Positions 2,606-9,934 of a stretch of 9,934 bases of DNA are shown here, one piece after another. The notes beneath the pieces were generated by a model, which saw nothing but the letters and a program-made list of their open reading frames with translations, had not been told where the DNA came from and made no database searches. Source of the DNA: Candidatus Poribacteria bacterium (lineage in GTDB: Bacteria > Poribacteria > WGA-4E > UBA9662); the NCBI GenBank assembly GCA_002699335.1, contig PACG01000154.1, forward strand, positions 15,655 through 25,588. The letters run 5' to 3'. The position numbers were made by a program, and so were the translations under genes. Every line of letters starts with the position of its first letter. Position 1 is the first letter of the stretch.

Positions 2606-3241
2606 CTATAGCCGCCCCGATGCCCACAACGCGCCGCGACGCATCGTCTTCTGAAAAGCCGGATTTTCAAGGGCCACCATATCATGACCCAGAGCAAAGA
2701 AGAAAACACGTCCATTCCCGTAGCTGTGTTTGAACGCCATCACATGCGTTTCATCTTTTGTGGGGTCGTAGGCTTCCATCAGATGCTGCGACTTCGACGG
2801 GTCATGCTTCAGGTAGTACAGTTCGTCGGTCACAACAAAATCCTCAAGTCCCTGGGTAATAGGGTCCTCCGAATCAATGATACTGACGGTGAAGTCCATG
2901 TATTTGCTATGGCCGTTAAAGAACCCATTGAGCATGCCGTGATACCCTTTGCACTCCCGGAACGATGCGGCCGCCGTATGAAGTCCGAAGAATCCACCCC
3001 CTTGCGTGATGAAACTCAGTAAGCTCTTCTCCTGCGACTTGGTGAGAGTACCCACATCGGTATAGAATATCACCGCTCCGTAGGTATGAAGCCCGTCCGT
3101 CAAAACTTCATAATCCTGTGAAAAGTCCGCCTTAATATCTTCAGTCTTTGAGAGCATTGCGGCCATGAATTTACCGTTACCAACGTGGTCGTGATAAACG
3201 CCCTCTGTACCTACAAATACGAGAAGCCTCAAGGGTTCCAT
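2606..3241 (-). CDS. ThuA-like domain protein (class I glutamine amidotransferase-like fold)
   Basis: The 211-residue protein carries ThuA family marks. These are the N-terminal strand LLVFVGTEGVYHDH (6-19), the GGGFFGLHTAA loop (81-91), FFNGH (107-111), the DELYYL strand (139-144), and a C-terminal ALGHD (183-187) followed by ENPAFQKTMRRGALW. ThuA proteins have a glutamine amidotransferase-like fold and are linked to trehalose and related sugar utilisation in rhizobia; their reaction is poorly defined. No signal peptide is seen. The start at 3241 is fixed by GGAGG seven bases upstream (3249-3253). The frame is open further upstream to 3334 and beyond, and that extension (MGISLSVDIKEK) is the displaced tail of the neighbouring LamG gene, not part of ThuA. 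It precedes the SMP-30 gene by 95 bp, suggesting a shared sugar-related operon. Confidence 0.85.
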   Translation of the reverse strand: MEPLRLLVFVGTEGVYHDHVGNGKFMAAMLSKTEDIKADFSQDYEVLTDGLHTYGAVIFYTDVGTLTKSQEKSLLSFITQGGGFFGLHTAAASFRECKGYHGMLNGFFNGHSKYMDFTVSIIDSEDPITQGLEDFVVTDELYYLKHDPSKSQHLMEAYDPTKDETHVMAFKHSYGNGRVFFFALGHDMVALENPAFQKTMRRGALWASGRL

Positions 3242-3288
3242 ACATTTACCTCCTCTCTGTTTTCTATTCAGACTTAATGCCCCCCAAG

Positions 3289-4078
3289 TTAGTGCCAGTT
3301 TCTCTTTAATATCCACTGACAGCGAGATACCCATATCACGTTTGACCTCTTTTTTGTCAGCACTTTGCTGTAAATAGCGATATTATCAATTAAACCTTGG
3401 GCTCCGTTTTTGGATGGAACATACTTGATGACTTCCAGACCAAATCGAGGATTGACGTGTAAAACGGGAAATTCGCCCAGACCGTTGCCTTTAGCAATTT
3501 CTTCCCCACTAAAATATAGGCATGCCTCTTGGCTGCTTTTGCCCTTGGTCGTGAACTCCCAGGTAGCCGCAATGTGAAACCATCCGTTTTTCTTGACCTC
3601 GCCTTTTGGGTCAAACTCTAGTTGTTGCCAGTCTTTATCAACCTTGTCTTCGAAGTAAAATTCAAACTCCGCGGAGTTAATATCACCATGGCCTGCCCCT
3701 TTAGAGATAAAGAAGTATATACCACCCATACTGGCATCAAAAATTCTGAAATCCTCACCATCTCCGCCATCCCAACTGGGCTTGAACCAGAACTCAATAG
3801 TTCCCTTAGGTTTTAACACTTTGCCAGGAATTTCAATATAACTGCCTTGGCGATCAGTGAAATCCCCTTATTGTCCTGTTTGTCTCCATCTCTACCCATT
3901 TAGCGCCGTCTTTCATGGTGCCATGATTTTTTGTTGGCTGTGGCATCAGTTGCGACATCGGCCCCAGCACGACCTTCACCCGATCCATAACAACAAATCT
4001 TTGTGCAGGTAGTTGACCGATAGCTGACGAAATAGCAAACGCTGAAACTAAGAGAAAAACAAAGTAGTTCCGCATCAT
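3289..4078 (-). pseudogene. Secreted LamG/concanavalin A-like lectin domain protein, broken by several frameshifts
   Basis: Start at ATG 4078 (or 4075), with AGGTGATAAAA just before it. The signal peptide is MMRNYFVFLLVSAFAISSAIGQ. A LamG domain can then be followed only by changing frame: GSGEGRAGADVATDATANK in a second frame; KNHGTMKDGAKWVE back in the first (the switch falls at an A6 run); DGDKQDNKGIS in another; then a long stretch from about 3840 with SYIEIPGKVLKPKGTIEFWF, WFHIAATWEF and LIDNIAIYSKVLTKK. The natural C-terminus (EVKRDMGISLSVDIKEKL) is in the -1 frame after A AAA AAG at 3349-3355; in the zero frame translation ends at 3289. LamG domains bind carbohydrates or proteins outside the cell; the specificity is unknown. 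Five frame changes in 800 bp argue for decay. The C-terminal 176-codon open frame could still be expressed from an internal GTG (3819), without a signal peptide. Confidence 0.7.
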
Positions 4079-4174
4079 TTTTATCACCTTGCACATTTCG
4101 TTTGCGTTTTTCAGTCTAGCAAAAAATACAAACGAAATCAAGTAAACCCGCGAAAGGCTAAATACCAAACGCAT
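4079..4174 (-). other. Possible upstream start and leader segment in frame with the LamG signal peptide
   Basis: An ATG at 4174 has a strong GGAGG nine bases upstream (4184-4188) and is in frame with the LamG signal-peptide start at 4078. It adds a hydrophobic segment, MRLVFSLSRVYLISFVFFA, followed by NANEMCKVIK. Either the protein has a doubled N-terminal hydrophobic region, or this is a short translated leader ahead of the true start. The coding region crosses the hairpin at 4095-4138, which fits a translational control arrangement. The evidence is only the ribosome site and the frame. Confidence 0.3.
4095..4138 (-). promoter_or_regulatory. Long stem-loop just upstream of the LamG start
   Basis: Ten perfect base pairs, ATTTCGTTTG (4095-4104) with CAAACGAAAT (4129-4138), then one mismatch, a G-T pair, five T-A pairs and a loop of about ten bases. 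In the minus-strand transcript the hairpin ends 17-20 nt before the ATG, next to the AAGGTGA ribosome site. It could control translation of the LamG gene, serve as a protein-binding operator, or be a leftover mobile repeat. No canonical terminator T-tract follows it. Confidence 0.45.
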
Positions 4175-4201
4175 ATTGCTTTTCCTCCGGCAAATTTGCA
4201 A

Positions 4202-4600: not shown

Positions 4601-5767
4601 TTAAAAGGGCATGGTTAAGGTCGTCGTCGCTCCTAATCCCTGTATCGATACCGCTTCATCCTTCATCCACCCCTGCGAAAACTGACCGTCTATTTGTAAA
4701 GCAAAGTCCCTTTTCAATTGTGCCATCATACCCAGACTAATAGTCGATACTTGTGACCGCCCCTGGCCGAAATCGTTTGCTAGTTTCCTCTTATGCTCAA
4801 CCATCCCTCTGACTTCAGTGAAACGGGATAGGCGGTAGCCCACATTCAGCCCCATCATTAATCCCATTCCCTGGTAGTTCTTTTCCTCCATCGCTAGTTC
4901 CTCTCCCTGCATAAACCTGTTTCTATTCCTGATCGTCTGACGGATGAATGCACTGGCAGATGATCGTACTCCCTGATAACTGATTCTGTTGTCTACCATC
5001 GTTTCCATTCCTTGCTGAAACTCTTTCTGACCAAAAAACTGGTCAGCCTCATACTGCGTCAAAATCACCGTGCTTCTGAGATTCACCTCTGACATCTTCA
5101 AGCCGGCGGAAAAAACACCATTATACTGGTTGCCCGGTTTATATCCCGCTTCCTCAGAGATGTCCAACTGTTTGTATGCTCCACGTGCCAGGTAACTCCC
5201 CCCACCACCAATGGTGACTGGCCCCATTTCGTGCATGCCCACCAACCCAATGCTGCCTTCCAGTCCCTGACCCAGTTTCCCCACCCGGAAAGCCAGGGTT
5301 TCTGAACTAAACTGGCGGAAGATTTTAGACTCAGGTATCGACAGCGCATTTTTCCCCGTCGGCAGGCTTAAACCGGAGGTGATCAGCAGTTTGTTCGGCA
5401 CCAAGCCATAGGACAGCTTAATCTTGGTATCACCAATGCCGCCAAAACTGAGAGGGTCCTGACTAGGCCATTTGGCACCGTCAGGCAGATCTAGCAACGA
5501 GATGGCATTGGATTCGGCCAGCATCAACTGCAATCGGGAGCCGAAGGTACGTGAGAGGAAGAAGGGTAGGGCCCATTGGGTCAATTTCTTCTCACTGCCA
5601 TCCTCCGTTATCTTCCAGGTTTGAAAGAAGATACTGCTGTGTACTACGGTGTGGGCTTGTCTATACTGGGCTGGAGCATCCTGAGGAATTAACAAACAAC
5701 AGCTAAGAATAAAAAACAGAGCAAAGCGAATGATTTTTTTGTTCTCAATCACTAGATAAAGATCCAA
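4601..5767 (-). CDS. Predicted outer-membrane beta-barrel protein
   Basis: The 388-residue protein has an N-terminal KKIIRFALFFILSCCLLIPQ hydrophobic signal followed by a likely APA cleavage site near residue 33. The rest is rich in alternating hydrophobic/polar strands with Gly and aromatic residues (for example GGIGDTKIKLSYGL, GLMMGLNVGYRL, QVSTISLGMM) and ends LTMPF. A terminal Phe is the usual BAM-recognition mark of outer-membrane barrels. LLITSGLSLPTGKNAL resembles transporter-like or MetA-pathway-type barrels, but no family can be named with confidence. The start is uncertain: the longest frame begins at TTG 5767, GTG at 5752 is another choice, and neither has a clear ribosome site. 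The stop TAA at 4601-4603 is firm. It is the last gene of the four-gene series, 106 bp after the TPR/CsgG-like lipoprotein gene, so a functional link with that protein at the outer membrane is plausible. Confidence 0.7.
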   Translation of the reverse strand: MDLYLVIENKKIIRFALFFILSCCLLIPQDAPAQYRQAHTVVHSSIFFQTWKITEDGSEKKLTQWALPFFLSRTFGSRLQLMLAESNAISLLDLPDGAKWPSQDPLSFGGIGDTKIKLSYGLVPNKLLITSGLSLPTGKNALSIPESKIFRQFSSETLAFRVGKLGQGLEGSIGLVGMHEMGPVTIGGGGSYLARGAYKQLDISEEAGYKPGNQYNGVFSAGLKMSEVNLRSTVILTQYEADQFFGQKEFQQGMETMVDNRISYQGVRSSASAFIRQTIRNRNRFMQGEELAMEEKNYQGMGLMMGLNVGYRLSRFTEVRGMVEHKRKLANDFGQGRSQVSTISLGMMAQLKRDFALQIDGQFSQGWMKDEAVSIQGLGATTTLTMPF

Positions 5768-5873
5768 TCTGCCCGGTGTCCCAATTACCCTACGGCTATT
5801 GAGGCACGGATGTAAGTTGATTCAACAGTTTTTGTCACAGATATTGTTTTTGGAGTATTTCAGCAGAAGATTT

Positions 5874-7262
5874 TCACTGCTCCCAACTGATATCAATCGA
5901 TATTTTGCGGCTGGCAGTTGCGGTCGCCGCCGGACTCTGCTGGTCACTTCCCCCGCCCCGAGTTTGTCCTTGATTCTGAATGGGGGCTGCGCCGGCCGCT
6001 GCTGGTTGAGGAATGAAGTCCTTGCTGACAATGGCATCTACTTCAGCCAAGGCGTTAGGGGCTGTGGCCATCCCTGTAGTGGGTGCTGCAGCGGCCGGTG
6101 TCTCGCTAGCTGCCACTGCCTCTACTTGTTCTACAGCCGCTTCAGGTTCAGCGGAGATGACAGCCGGAGCCATATTAATTTCCTCCACGTCAGACAATGT
6201 TTCCTCCGCCTGACTAAATCCGGGGTCTAACTCCACCGCCTGCGAAAAGGCTTGGCTGGCCGCCGCATAATCGCCCCGATCCACCAGGTCAATTCCACGG
6301 GAATAAGCCATAAAAGCCATAAAGTTTTCGGTCGGTCTTTTTTGAATGGCCGCTTCCTCCTCTGGAGTAATAGAGATTCCCATAGTGTCCAAAATGCTGA
6401 ACACCAAGGCTTTTTCCATCTCAAACAACTCCACTTGTGGCCCTTGCAGCGGCTCAGTCTGGTCGATTTGGGAGGTCTCGATCTGGCTGCAAGTGGCGTT
6501 TAACATTAACCCTGATTCGCTAAGAGAGGTGAAATTTCCCTTGACTACCTGTGCTGCACCCAACAAACGACCAGTGCGAGGCGCTGTTTCTGCGTCGATT
6601 ATCGACTGTTCAGCTAACTCCATCTCCTGCAGGAGCTTTTGCATTCGTGTTCGTTCCACCACTTTCAACGATTTCACCTGCGATAAATCGCTGATCAATA
6701 GGTCAGTTAAGCCCTTACGCAATGGCTCCAGTTCCGGGTTGGAACTGCTATTGTCAAAATACATCACTGCCACCGTGTTAGGTTCTGTTTGTGGGTAATT
6801 GCCTGCAGCCTCTGCCACCAGTGCCTGTTTGGCCAGCCGAGTCATCCGTTTTGCAACCAACGATTTCAGGCGTATCTCTATTTTCTTTTTGGTCGAACTC
6901 AGCGGTGCAACCTCAGTATAGCGTTGATAGGCCTGAATGGCTTGATCTTCGTTTTCCTGCAGTTCGTAGACCAGCCCCAGGTAGAGTATAGTTCCTCCAT
7001 CATCCGGTTTCCGGCTTAGCACTTGATTAAAATAATCGATAGCCTGATCATAATTCTCTTTTTTATAATAGACAATGCCCAATTGACGCAATACCGTAAC
7101 CGATTCCGAATCGGCCTTAAGCATTTCGGTCAAGATCTTGAGAGCTGAATCGTAATCGTCGGAAACCAGTAATTGTTGTGCTTCTTCCAAAGGTGTCAAA
7201 GTAGCGCAGCCAATCGCCATGAACACACAAATCATAACTATCACAAGCGGTTTTATTTTCAT
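5874..7262 (-). CDS. Lipoprotein with TPR repeats and a CsgG/FlgO/TolB-like domain
   Basis: 462 residues from ATG 7262, chosen because GGAAAGAG lies just upstream and the signal follows directly. An earlier ATG at 7295 would add 11 hydrophilic residues before it. A lipoprotein signal ends FMAIGC, giving lipidated Cys19. Residues about 25-120 form three TPR-like units (DYDSALKILTEML, YYKKENYDQAIDYFNQVL, NEDQAIQAYQRYTEV). Residues about 162-300 resemble CsgG/FlgO/TolB-like domains of outer-membrane assembly lipoproteins: NTVAVMYFDNSSSNPELEPL, LTDLLISDLSQVKSLKVVER, then LGAAQVVKGNF. Another TPR follows (AYSRGIDLVDRGDYAAA, about 319-350). The tail, about 365-455, is low-complexity Ala/Pro/Glu/Gln/Gly, ending RKISIDISWEQ. 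Such proteins sit at the periplasmic face of the outer membrane; CsgG itself is a secretion pore, but this one is much longer and pore formation is not shown. It lies 73 bp after the cohesin lipoprotein gene. Confidence 0.8.
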   Translation of the reverse strand: MKIKPLVIVMICVFMAIGCATLTPLEEAQQLLVSDDYDSALKILTEMLKADSESVTVLRQLGIVYYKKENYDQAIDYFNQVLSRKPDDGGTILYLGLVYELQENEDQAIQAYQRYTEVAPLSSTKKKIEIRLKSLVAKRMTRLAKQALVAEAAGNYPQTEPNTVAVMYFDNSSSNPELEPLRKGLTDLLISDLSQVKSLKVVERTRMQKLLQEMELAEQSIIDAETAPRTGRLLGAAQVVKGNFTSLSESGLMLNATCSQIETSQIDQTEPLQGPQVELFEMEKALVFSILDTMGISITPEEEAAIQKRPTENFMAFMAYSRGIDLVDRGDYAAASQAFSQAVELDPGFSQAEETLSDVEEINMAPAVISAEPEAAVEQVEAVAASETPAAAAPTTGMATAPNALAEVDAIVSKDFIPQPAAAGAAPIQNQGQTRGGGSDQQSPAATATASRKISIDISWEQ

Positions 7263-7335
7263 TTCTCTTTCCTTGAAAATTCCTTGTAAATCCAAGCCAG
7301 CTTATCGTTTAGGCGCCACACACAACTTCCAATCA

Positions 7336-8217
7336 TCACTTAATTAAAATTGATACCTGACTATTTGTGACGGTCAGATAGTCCTTTAGTCGCTGAAACT
7401 CAGCAATGGGTTTGCCGTCTGCTTGAATCAGGGTCAACATCTTGCTCTCCGCCGCCGGAATAATGCCCATAGTTGCCCTACCCACAGCCTTGGCCCTAAA
7501 ACTGACCGTTGCTACTGTGCCTTCAGTGGCGGAACTTCCCTGGGCTCCCTTCTGTCCCACCGCTATTCCAATCCTCCCTTCCGACCTGTCCAATTTTAGA
7601 TCGTCAAACAGTAAGGCCTCATTCCCTAGCGATGATCCCAGCTCAACTCCCGTGGGGGTAACTTTCTGCTCATCAAACCCTAACTCCAGTGATAGGCCAA
7701 ACAGCTTACTCACCCCCGCCACATTGACGGCTACCTCAAAGGTCTGCCCTAACGTTACCTCCGCCGCCGACAGTTCCAGCGACAGAATAGAGGTGGTCGG
7801 CGTCGGTGCCAGTTCCACTGTTATTTTGGGCTGCGGTTGATCTATGTTGGCAATTGGCGATTCCCCGCTAAAGGCTACTCGTTCCTCTCCCTTTTCATCT
7901 ACTTCATAGGCCTCGATCAGGATTTTCTCCGCTTCTACCGGCACCATTAAATCCATCGCCAACCGGCGTTGATCGCTGCTGATGTCCACCGATTTCACTA
8001 TCGGTTCAAAGTCCGGTCCTTCTATCGTTATCTGAATACGGGTGACCTGCAATTCAGTCTGGACCACTCCCGGTGCCAGACGCAATTCCAGTTGGGGATA
8101 GGCATAGCGCTGATCCTCATTCTCAATTTGGCCACAGGCTAGCAGCAAAACCAATAGGCCTATCACCCCGCGCAACCGTCTGCCGTTGTAACTCCCCATT
8201 ACTTTAGTCTTCTTCAT
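7336..8217 (-). CDS. Lipoprotein with a C-terminal cohesin domain
   Basis: 293 residues. The N-terminus MKKTKVMGSYNGRRLRG is followed by VIGLLVLLLAC, a clear lipobox with Cys28 as the lipidated residue. Residues about 40-137 form a small beta-sandwich-like domain (RIQITIEGPDFEPIVKSV, KILIEAYEVDEKGEE). Residues about 143-285 read as a cohesin: SLELSAAEVTLGQTFEVAV, then LFGLSLELGFDEQKV, GRIGIAVGQKGA and GTVATVSFRAKAVGRAT. These match the order of cohesin strands, and the length is near the usual 140 residues. Cohesins bind dockerins tightly in the presence of calcium. The gene directly upstream, ending 18 bp before this start, encodes a dockerin, so a pair is likely. The start has no strong ribosome site, and translational coupling to the upstream stop is plausible; ATG at 8199 (residue 7) is an alternative. 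No cellulase or other enzyme domain is present. The cohesin call is from pattern alone. Confidence 0.75.
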   Translation of the reverse strand: MKKTKVMGSYNGRRLRGVIGLLVLLLACGQIENEDQRYAYPQLELRLAPGVVQTELQVTRIQITIEGPDFEPIVKSVDISSDQRRLAMDLMVPVEAEKILIEAYEVDEKGEERVAFSGESPIANIDQPQPKITVELAPTPTTSILSLELSAAEVTLGQTFEVAVNVAGVSKLFGLSLELGFDEQKVTPTGVELGSSLGNEALLFDDLKLDRSEGRIGIAVGQKGAQGSSATEGTVATVSFRAKAVGRATMGIIPAAESKMLTLIQADGKPIAEFQRLKDYLTVTNSQVSILIK

Positions 8218-8235
8218 CTTGGGTCTGGTCTCATG

Positions 8236-9934
8236 CTACTTTAGAATTATCAATCGTCGCGTCTGCTGATAATCTCCCGTCTGGAGTTGATAGAAGTATA
8301 TCCCACTGGAAACCCACTCGCCCCAACGATTTCTGCCATCCCAATAGGCCGCCTGGGAGGGGGCTGTATAGTAAGCGGCCGCTTTAAATCCCAGCTCCAG
8401 GGCTCGTATCTGTTCTCCCTTCAGGTCATAAATCACGATCCGCACCTCACCCGCCTGGGCCAACTGGTAGGGAATCCAGGTCTCCGGATTGAACGGATTA
8501 GGATAATTAGCCAGTAACCGCGTCTGAGACGGTATCTCTTGTGCCGTCAGCTGTTGCACTTGCAACTCTAGCCAAGACTTCAACTGATTAGCCCCAGCTG
8601 TTGGTTCCGGCCAACCTTTCAGCACCTCAATCATCCGCCGCAGAATCTGCCGCTTACGGCCGGATTCAGTACGGTCATCAGCAGCTTCCAGATTAAACGG
8701 TCGACCCAGAGGAGCTACCGCGGTCGTCCCGCTTCTGCTGCGATGCCAATTTTGAGCGATGGCAATCACGTCTTCCTCATTGACCTGGCCGTCACCGTTG
8801 GCATCAGCGTAAGTGCCTGCCTGCTGGCTCCAGGGTATGGCCGGTTGCACCTGCCACACCGTTTGGTCCAACTTCTGCCGTGGTGGACCGCTCTTCTGCC
8901 AATGGATCAGCAGCCACAACACGTCCAGCAAATTGACCACTTCATCCTGGTTGGTATCGCCTGGCCACACCCCCAGACCAGTGGTAAAGGTAAATTCGGC
9001 CTGTTCTAACTGGTTGGCCGACACATCCTGTAAGCTGGGAGAAATACTGACCCGCACCTTGTCTCCATCCGCCATCATCTCCTGCAGGCTGAAAACCAAC
9101 ACTGAATCCCCTTCCAGGGCAGTCTTGCCCGAGTACTTACGTTGGCCTTCAACCTGGATACTGTTAGCCTTTACACTGTCGGTATCTATCAGTTCATCTT
9201 GGCCAAAACTGATGCGTATTTCGGTCAGGTTGACCGCCACGTGAACCGCTTTGTCGGCGGGAATAGCCTGCTGGATAGAGAAATCGCGGTCCTTAAAATA
9301 GGTGAAGGCGGATGACAGACGGCCCGAATGACCGTCGGCATTAGTGACCACAATACCAACGACCCCGGTCGTCTGGTCCGGTGTCAGGGCCTGAATTTCA
9401 GTGGCAGAGGCTACTTTCACCCCGCTGGCGGATTCGCCACCCATGGTGACTTTGGCTCCATCGCTGAAATTGGTTCCTTTAATTCTCACCGATAAACCAC
9501 CGATAGCTCGACCCCGGGTCGGCGAAATTGAAGCCACATTGGGCAGCAGAAAATAGGTGAAGGCTGCAGCCAGAGTGGCGGTTAAACCGGCGGGGTCAGT
9601 CAGTTTCAATTCCTGTGCTCCTACCGCGCCGCTGGGAGCAACAAAGGTCATCCGGCTAGGGGAGACGACTTTGACCTCGGTCGCCGCTTTACCAGCCAGA
9701 GTCACTGTGGTGCCGGCCAAAAAATTGTTTCCGCTCAAAACCACCGTCGTTCCGCCATTAGTCGCCCCCTCATCAGGCACCAGGGACACAATTAGCGGCG
9801 GGTCATCGACCGGAGTCACTGTTAAGGTAACAGTGGCCTCCGCGCTATCGGTCTTGCCATCATTGACTTTAAAGGTGAAACTGTCACTACCGTTGAAATT
9901 GGCATTGGGCGTGTAAACCAGATTGGGTGCTTCT
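8236..9934 (-). CDS. Large secreted multi-Ig protein with dockerin and FlgD/T9SS-like C-terminus (5' part beyond window)
   Basis: The frame is open to the right edge, so the true start is outside the window; GTG at 9819 is not the start because the reading before it is coding (YTPNANFNGSDSFTFKVNDG, a cadherin/VCBS-type Ig repeat). In order along the 565 visible residues: the Ig repeat (1-45); two IPT/TIG domains (about 46-128 and 130-213), each ending in an AFTYF strand; an SbsA-type Ig domain (about 220-318); and a dockerin with two complete EF-loops, DTNQDEVVNLLD (8923-8958) and DANGDGQVNEED (8770-8805). The dockerin is split by an insert with several Trp residues. After a linker comes LLANYPNPFNPETWIPYQL, which opens a FlgD/T9SS-type Ig module ending GIYFYQLQTGDYQQTRRLIILK. 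The protein is probably exported and surface-bound, and the dockerin could dock on the cohesin lipoprotein encoded 18 bp downstream. A role as adhesin or surface-layer component is inferred. Confidence 0.85.
   Translation of the reverse strand, partial: EAPNLVYTPNANFNGSDSFTFKVNDGKTDSAEATVTLTVTPVDDPPLIVSLVPDEGATNGGTTVVLSGNNFLAGTTVTLAGKAATEVKVVSPSRMTFVAPSGAVGAQELKLTDPAGLTATLAAAFTYFLLPNVASISPTRGRAIGGLSVRIKGTNFSDGAKVTMGGESASGVKVASATEIQALTPDQTTGVVGIVVTNADGHSGRLSSAFTYFKDRDFSIQQAIPADKAVHVAVNLTEIRISFGQDELIDTDSVKANSIQVEGQRKYSGKTALEGDSVLVFSLQEMMADGDKVRVSISPSLQDVSANQLEQAEFTFTTGLGVWPGDTNQDEVVNLLDVLWLLIHWQKSGPPRQKLDQTVWQVQPAIPWSQQAGTYADANGDGQVNEEDVIAIAQNWHRSRSGTTAVAPLGRPFNLEAADDRTESGRKRQILRRMIEVLKGWPEPTAGANQLKSWLELQVQQLTAQEIPSQTRLLANYPNPFNPETWIPYQLAQAGEVRIVIYDLKGEQIRALELGFKAAAYYTAPSQAAYWDGRNRWGEWVSSGIYFYQLQTGDYQQTRRLIILK

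Follow-up and report, generated by a model that had tools for sequence, protein, structure and literature searches.

A cohesin lipoprotein and a dockerin-bearing protein with a type IX sorting tail as a probable non-cellulosomal surface anchor in Candidatus Poribacteria

The combination of cohesin and dockerin modules is characteristic of cellulosomes, whose type II cohesins hold something at the cell surface. A paper by Peer et al. from 2009 reportedly deals, to go by its title, with such modules outside cellulosomes. In this work, a window of 9,934 nucleotides of Candidatus Poribacteria bacterium, in all likelihood an uncultured marine organism (contig PACG01000154.1, positions 15,655 to 25,588), was analyzed, in which four leftward genes encode a dockerin-bearing surface protein, a cohesin lipoprotein, a lipoprotein with tetratricopeptide repeats (TPRs) and a CsgG-like domain, and a predicted outer-membrane beta-barrel. 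The closest published case that was found is the cellulosome-like complex of Candidatus Stygibacter (Cloacimonadota), according to the accessible text a non-clostridial cohesin-dockerin system from metagenome-assembled genomes, for which attachment by a C-terminal domain of the type IX secretion system (T9SS) type was proposed (PMC8542988). There, a multi-cohesin scaffoldin bears this domain and the enzymes bear the dockerins (PMC8542988), whereas in the window an adhesin-type protein has both the dockerin and the tail, and a single cohesin sits on a lipoprotein. With the type II cohesins SdbA and ScaB (PDB 2bm3, 3l8q and 4u3s), which were its best structural matches, the window cohesin shares the fold. 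The locus differs from them by the lipid anchor, an unassigned N-terminal part predicted to be all-beta, the Gram-negative-type envelope, a non-scaffoldin cargo and a dockerin that matches the type I profile.

In Bacteroidota, type A cargo of the T9SS is anchored by a PorU-linked lipopolysaccharide conjugate. The system described here resembles this pathway in the C-terminal sorting tail and in candidate SprA/PorV/PorU-type partners, but anchoring is proposed to be achieved by cohesin and dockerin, and not or not only by a lipopolysaccharide conjugate. The other two proteins call to mind polysaccharide exporters, of which PelC has a CsgG-like fold. Like the predicted proteins of the window, PelBC, PgaA and BcsC combine a 16-stranded barrel with TPRs, joined in Pel by a lipoprotein ring, as the accessible part of PMC12141448 describes for PelBC; in the window, by contrast, TPRs and CsgG-like domain are united in one lipoprotein and the barrel is separate. 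No published account of a poribacterial cohesin-dockerin anchor was found in the literature searched, which mostly excludes subscription papers, and a genome without cohesins or dockerins is reported in the accessible text of PMC5831590.

The first two genes probably (with a likelihood of about 0.62) constitute a surface anchor that is based on a cohesin outside any cellulosome and holds adhesin-type proteins exported by the T9SS of Candidatus Poribacteria. The four open reading frames (ORFs) occupy positions 8236-9933, 7336-8217, 5874-7295 and 4601-5767, all on the minus strand. They are separated by gaps of 18, 73 and 106 bp if the third gene starts with the ATG at 7262 and the fourth with the TTG at 5767; starts at the TTG at 7295 or the GTG at 5752 change the latter two gaps to 40 and 121 bp, respectively. 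The initial annotation had reported the same arrangement and gap values, together with the two modules, a lipoprotein as carrier of the cohesin and the lack of a carbohydrate-active enzyme. All of this was borne out: both Pfam profiles scored above their curated cut-offs, the cohesin protein possesses a signal peptide with a lipobox, and a Pfam scan of the visible operon revealed no carbohydrate-active enzyme. A scan for promoters and terminators remained at chance level (six promoter-like signals vs 4.6 expected, four terminator-like signals vs 5.5 expected).

The dockerin-bearing protein (8236..9933, minus strand; identified by ORF, Pfam and NCBIfam) has its 5' end beyond the window, and its copy in a near relative (L079:1-2313, 88% identical) is likewise cut by a contig end. 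The 565 residues seen comprise the end of a Big_9/cadherin-like repeat, two TIG domains, a Big_5 domain, the dockerin (8740..8976, minus strand), a spacer of 73 residues and a C-terminal tail of the T9SS/Por secretion type (8239..8523, minus strand). Dockerin_1 (PF00404) was matched with an E-value of 2.2e-7 and 31.4 bits (cut-off 22.9). The match stretches over 67 residues against 50 positions in Dockerin_1, so the linker exceeds that of the profile in length. The module contains two calcium loops, D7/N9/D11/D18 and D58/N60/D62/D69, whose eight ligand positions are identical in 9/9 aligned modules (window and eight other loci); in the long linker between them, R33 and W41 are invariant in the nine modules and QPA is frequent. 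With its two calcium-binding repeats and the profile score above the cut-off, the module is a type I dockerin. The tail reached 33.6 bits with TIGR04183 (NCBIfam, cut-off 23) and 26.3 bits with PF18962, just short of the cut-off of 27, and this C-terminal sorting domain marks the protein as a putative T9SS type A substrate. Neither the tail nor the TPRs of the third protein had been mentioned in the initial annotation.

Among the 84 genomes of the phylum that served as relatives, the long-linker subtype of dockerin was detected at 15 places in seven genomes (E 1e-10). At 12 of these places a sorting tail follows 60-95 residues downstream; two of the remaining three (both in genome G005) have a cohesin before the tail and one is cut by a contig end. 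N-termini resembling signal peptides were recognized by eye in the dockerin proteins of loci L073, L075, L084, L086 and L087. The protein of L075 (1784-4276) is a lone paralogue of the window protein, 79% identical over the 565 residues; no cohesin gene was found beside it, and it could use a receptor of the window type. A further long-linker dockerin with tail terminates an ORF of 4958 residues (L076:2700-17576), and no cohesin gene was found in the stretches on either side (L076, L077). Cohesin, dockerin and sorting tail occur together in single proteins at L092:8944-12297, L092:12319-17364, L093:13319-17695, L105:4270-12099 and L108:130-2643. Such proteins might form fibres by head-to-tail linkage, or else bind back to themselves.

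The cohesin lipoprotein (7336..8217, minus strand) was identified by Pfam, lipobox, a PDB profile search and a structural model. Its signal peptide ends in the lipobox LLAC (Cys28), residues ~40-138 are predicted to be all-beta and are assigned to no family, and the cohesin spans residues ~141-293. Cohesin (PF00963) was matched with an E-value of 4.9e-9 and 36.9 bits (cut-off 24.1), and the PDB profile search and the model both came closest to type II (anchoring) cohesins. Thus, the C-terminal half did match cohesin profiles and, with the curated profile match and the cohesin fold, the module qualifies as a cohesin. At positions +2 to +9 after the lipid-carrying cysteine, 12/12 cohesin lipoproteins contain one to three acidic residues (mean 2.5), compared to zero to two in the CsgG-like lipoproteins (mean 0.69; none in 6/13), a contrast that is significant in the Mann-Whitney test (p 1.7e-4), albeit on related sequences. 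In Capnocytophaga, K-(D/E)2 or Q-A-(D/E)2 near the N-terminus directs lipoproteins outward according to the accessible text of PMC5080379, and by analogy the outward export of the cohesin lipoprotein by a similar signal may be taken as a lead.

The cohesin lipoprotein has one close relative (90% identical), encoded by JASMLX010000129.1 of Candidatus Poribacteria bacterium isolate Arabian9_MAG_50 (L001, genome G001); the genome scan also yielded a weak planctomycete match (32%). Among 5.8 billion proteins, the single lipoprotein gave seven matches, its alignment 23 and the alignment of the barrel 17, the two alignment searches having scored only ~8000 candidates each. All five records naming an organism among the matches to the two alignments belong to Candidatus Poribacteria. 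Within the phylum, some match to the cohesin lipoprotein was seen in 62/84 genomes; the count falls to six once G009:C46, G003:C112, G001:C16 and matches confined to the cohesin domain are left out. G009:C46 (L091) is lipoprotein-like, with a different N-terminal half and without a long-linker dockerin, and G003:C112 is a cohesin plus tail.

Whether the four genes stay together in related genomes had been proposed as a check, and they were found to do so. The order dockerin gene, cohesin gene, csgG, barrel was found, besides the window, in the near relative L079 (88-96% identical), in a paralogous copy in the same genome (L074, 43-52%) and in L081 of genome G016, where only the end of the dockerin gene is visible before the contig ends. 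In L073, L084 and L086, the dockerin and cohesin genes are followed by a beta-helix gene (by Pfam in L073 and L084, by position and length in L086), and at the contig start of L087 the order is barrel, cohesin, dockerin. The dockerin-cohesin gene pair is thus conserved and recurs with adhesin-type passengers of various kinds: the dockerin protein of L074 contains 16 TIG stretches and WD40 repeats, that of L073 a WD40 propeller, that of L087 17 PKD stretches and that of L079 three Big_9 stretches. Altogether, 6/15 long-linker dockerins adjoin a cohesin lipoprotein gene. In G001, this applies to 3/5 dockerins, against an expectation of 1.6% for each (P 4e-5). Loci L083, L085 and L089 have cohesin gene, csgG and barrel with 4-bp overlaps and without an adjoining dockerin gene, that is, receptor loci lacking a plug of their own; in L083 and L089, genes of an ABC ATPase and a GHMP kinase precede the cohesin gene.

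All six cohesin-lipoprotein genomes lie within the seven of 84 that possess the barrel (hypergeometric p 1.7e-8, uncorrected for kinship), and kinship may be behind much of this co-occurrence. The distance matrices of linked dockerins and cohesin lipoproteins agreed with r 0.977 for seven pairs (4/5040 permutations as high) and, after removal of near-duplicates, with r 0.808 for five pairs (2/120 permutations as high). Because linked genes share descent, this correlation was not used as proof of binding; shared descent alone could produce such an agreement.

All T9SS genes reported below were seen in the genomes of relatives. SprA/Sov (TIGR04189) found matches in 83/84 phylum genomes, one of them above the curated cut-off, and in 0/14 control genomes. 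In G001, a protein of 2204 residues matched with an E-value of 7.6e-40 and 136 bits (cut-off 200), its sole NCBIfam match at E 1e-5; L103:3728-10342 encodes a conserved SprA/Sov-like protein of ~2200 residues. Five SprA-like proteins below the cut-off are 51-76% identical to each other in their best alignments, the longest of which exceeds 2200 columns, and in a one-sequence search a profile of the five matched the above-cut-off protein of G007 (E 1e-15). PorV-like proteins were detected in 84/84 genomes and 0/14 controls, PorU-like proteins in 9/9 genomes tried and also in 2/14 controls. Many PorU-like rows cover only the shared C-terminal tail, whereas in every genome the best-scoring rows extend over the central part of the profile, where the peptidase lies. 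In 2014, many poribacterial repeat proteins (WD40 and others) were reported to carry TIGR04183, and Por structural genes were not found, according to the accessible text of PMC3909097. The divergent SprA- and PorV-like sequences are candidates for the Por machinery not found in that study.

On this basis, the following scenario can be proposed. The dockerin protein would enter the periplasm by Sec and cross the outer membrane via the divergent SprA/Sov-type T9SS of the phylum, guided by its C-terminal tail. The tail may then be retained, or removed by a PorU-like peptidase, which would leave the dockerin as the last folded module. Loaded with calcium, the dockerin would dock into the one cohesin of the lipoprotein encoded next to it. 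This lipoprotein is presumably attached to the outer membrane by its lipid, with an outward orientation being probable. In this way, exchangeable passengers such as cadherin/TIG proteins, WD40 propellers and PKD arrays might be held on the cell. Together with the barrel, the TPR/CsgG-like lipoprotein would form a further unit that can in part be separated from the anchor and is often encoded beside it, most likely an exporter composed of a periplasmic lipoprotein and a channel, or an assembly aid. The initial annotation had suggested a calcium-dependent fibre or coat in which the cohesin lipoprotein holds the dockerin protein at the membrane. The holding role is supported by these data, with binding as its conditional part; as to the fibre or coat, display of single proteins on a tether would fit equally well. 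If the scenario is true, the cohesin-dockerin pairing gains a non-cellulosomal job, which can be tested with the two purified domains, and the phylum-wide divergent SprA- and PorV-like genes make the export route of large poribacterial surface proteins testable. A calcium-dependent display with one socket and many plugs would be of interest for studying how marine and sponge-associated bacteria adhere, and for surface-display design.

Several observations weigh against this interpretation. Nine of the 15 long-linker dockerins have no cohesin lipoprotein alongside; two of them (G005) belong to proteins carrying cohesins themselves, and seven have no adjoining cohesin gene in the stretch examined, some lying near contig ends. 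Apart from SprA in one genome, the SprA-, PorV- and PorU-like matches stay below the NCBI curated cut-offs. GldM was detected in 0/9 genomes by a search without positive control, the SprA-like protein as a single sequence matched nothing in the PDB, and Pfam returned for it a weak CBM_11 match only. As a single sequence, the window cohesin protein matched no PDB chain either, and the best of its five models was only fair, with a mean predicted local distance difference test (pLDDT) value of 70.8 (62.7 to 46.5 for the others). Finally, the acidic stretch in the window deviates from the exact motif of Capnocytophaga, and the comparison was made among related sequences.

The third protein (5874..7262, minus strand, from the ATG at 7262; the ORF is open to the TTG at 7295) is a putative lipoprotein with the lipobox AIGC, in which TPRs accompany a CsgG-like domain of ~135 residues (6375..6779, minus strand). 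CsgG (PF03783) was matched with an E-value of 1.5e-10 and 41.2 bits (cut-off 20.8), so that a CsgG domain is present by a partial profile, positions 10-102 of 210. This domain matched no solved structure by sequence; for the whole protein, TPR-type chains were found in the best 60 of 175 rows. Eight of 13 members of the family contain RGGG or RGNG near the C-terminus (window 5874-5970), and the last element in the family is a short beta-like strand that may make contact with the barrel. For the fourth protein (4601..5767, minus strand; the GTG at 5752 may serve as start instead), no Pfam family was found, nor for 16 members of its unnamed family except one at E 0.069, and its profile matched no solved chain by sequence. 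Its assignment as an outer-membrane barrel rests on the predicted model (mean pLDDT 78, predicted template modelling score 0.72). In either structural search, outer-membrane barrels make up nearly all of the 50 matches listed. By eye, the model has 16 long strands, with 58-66 and 69-74 counted as one, and a long loop at residues 139-169 that includes a helix (144-153) and many conserved positions. Foldseek returned porins and other barrels (query template modelling score 0.32-0.47), and VIA returned PelB (19.8), CdiB (19.7), PgaA (19.6), FhaC (18.7), BcsC (18.2) and porins from 18.0. Since VIA rows within 1 are tied, reading the barrel as an exporter is only a lead. csgG lies directly upstream of the barrel gene at 12/13 barrel places, the exception being G003:C254. 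Six of the 12 pairs have a cohesin gene upstream, five do not, and the contig start truncates one (G002:C373, L098).

What else could the cohesin and dockerin serve? A cellulosome or other enzyme scaffold, of which the two modules are the hallmark, is highly improbable. Proteins with several cohesins do exist in G001 (three matches in one frame of 639 residues at C72 and two at C165), but the visible operon of the window encodes a single cohesin, on a lipoprotein, and no enzyme domain or carbohydrate-binding family. Moreover, the ten G001 dockerin ORFs inspected (C-terminal pieces; 28 matches in all) contain WD40, beta-helix, TIG, Big_9, cohesin and carboxypeptidase-regulatory-like domains; glycoside hydrolases, polysaccharide lyases and carbohydrate-binding families were absent from the up to 25 families listed for each. 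The same genome lends some weight to a different idea, namely that the real partners of the dockerin protein are cohesins of other proteins in fibres or networks, the neighbouring lipoprotein being one receptor among many. In G001, 29 matches to cohesin and 28 to dockerin were counted, cohesin and dockerin share one chain in four loci (L092, L093, L105 and L108), and the 9/15 modules without a neighbouring cohesin lipoprotein fit in. We nevertheless regard such partners as rather unlikely, as the distance matrices of the linked genes agree, though shared descent could suffice for this.

The surface anchor remains our preferred interpretation of the first two genes, and the role of the other two has to be considered beside it. 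According to the initial annotation, the CsgG-like lipoprotein and the barrel assist export, forming a curli-like route for the dockerin protein. That both are encoded with the dockerin and cohesin genes at four loci (window, L079, L074, L081), that the CsgG profile is matched and that the six cohesin-lipoprotein genomes are all among the seven with the barrel speaks for this proposal. A role in trans is also conceivable because the genomes of L073, L084 and L086 hold csgG-barrel pairs elsewhere. On the other hand, the dockerin protein bears a T9SS tail, these three loci have no csgG or barrel alongside, almost half of the csgG-barrel pairs lack an upstream cohesin gene, the CsgG match is partial and the co-occurrence disregards kinship. 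Besides, no curli subunit family and no CsgE or CsgF occurred among the Pfam matches of the eight window ORFs, the 5' side of the operon lying beyond the window. The export role is less supported, and curli-like export of the dockerin protein appears distinctly unlikely. Somewhat better placed, if still tentative, is a rearranged polymer exporter of the PelBC type, next to whose exported material the cohesin anchor would tie surface proteins to the cells; this adds to the anchor and does not oppose it. The predicted parts resemble those of PelBC, but no synthase was found among the neighbours scanned. A more far-reaching version is doubtful: a cohesin-dockerin lock would replace the usual anchoring of T9SS cargo after tail removal by a PorU-like enzyme, one receptor would serve several giant exchangeable passengers in a calcium-switchable coat, and the TPR-CsgG protein and barrel would be a Pel-like channel for the matrix bound by the passengers.

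Downstream of the operon, a few minor features were noticed. A 73-residue ORF (1332-1553) was considered as a dockerin and rejected; it scored weakly with a custom dockerin model and matched no Pfam family. An ORF with a signal-peptide-like sequence (3854-4201) precedes a laminin-G-like one (3289-3819, E 2.2e-11), and the two perhaps represent one frameshifted or mis-sequenced gene. A ThuA-like gene is whole in the window (2606-3334) but split into two overlapping ORFs at L079:7331-7995, perhaps by an assembly frameshift.

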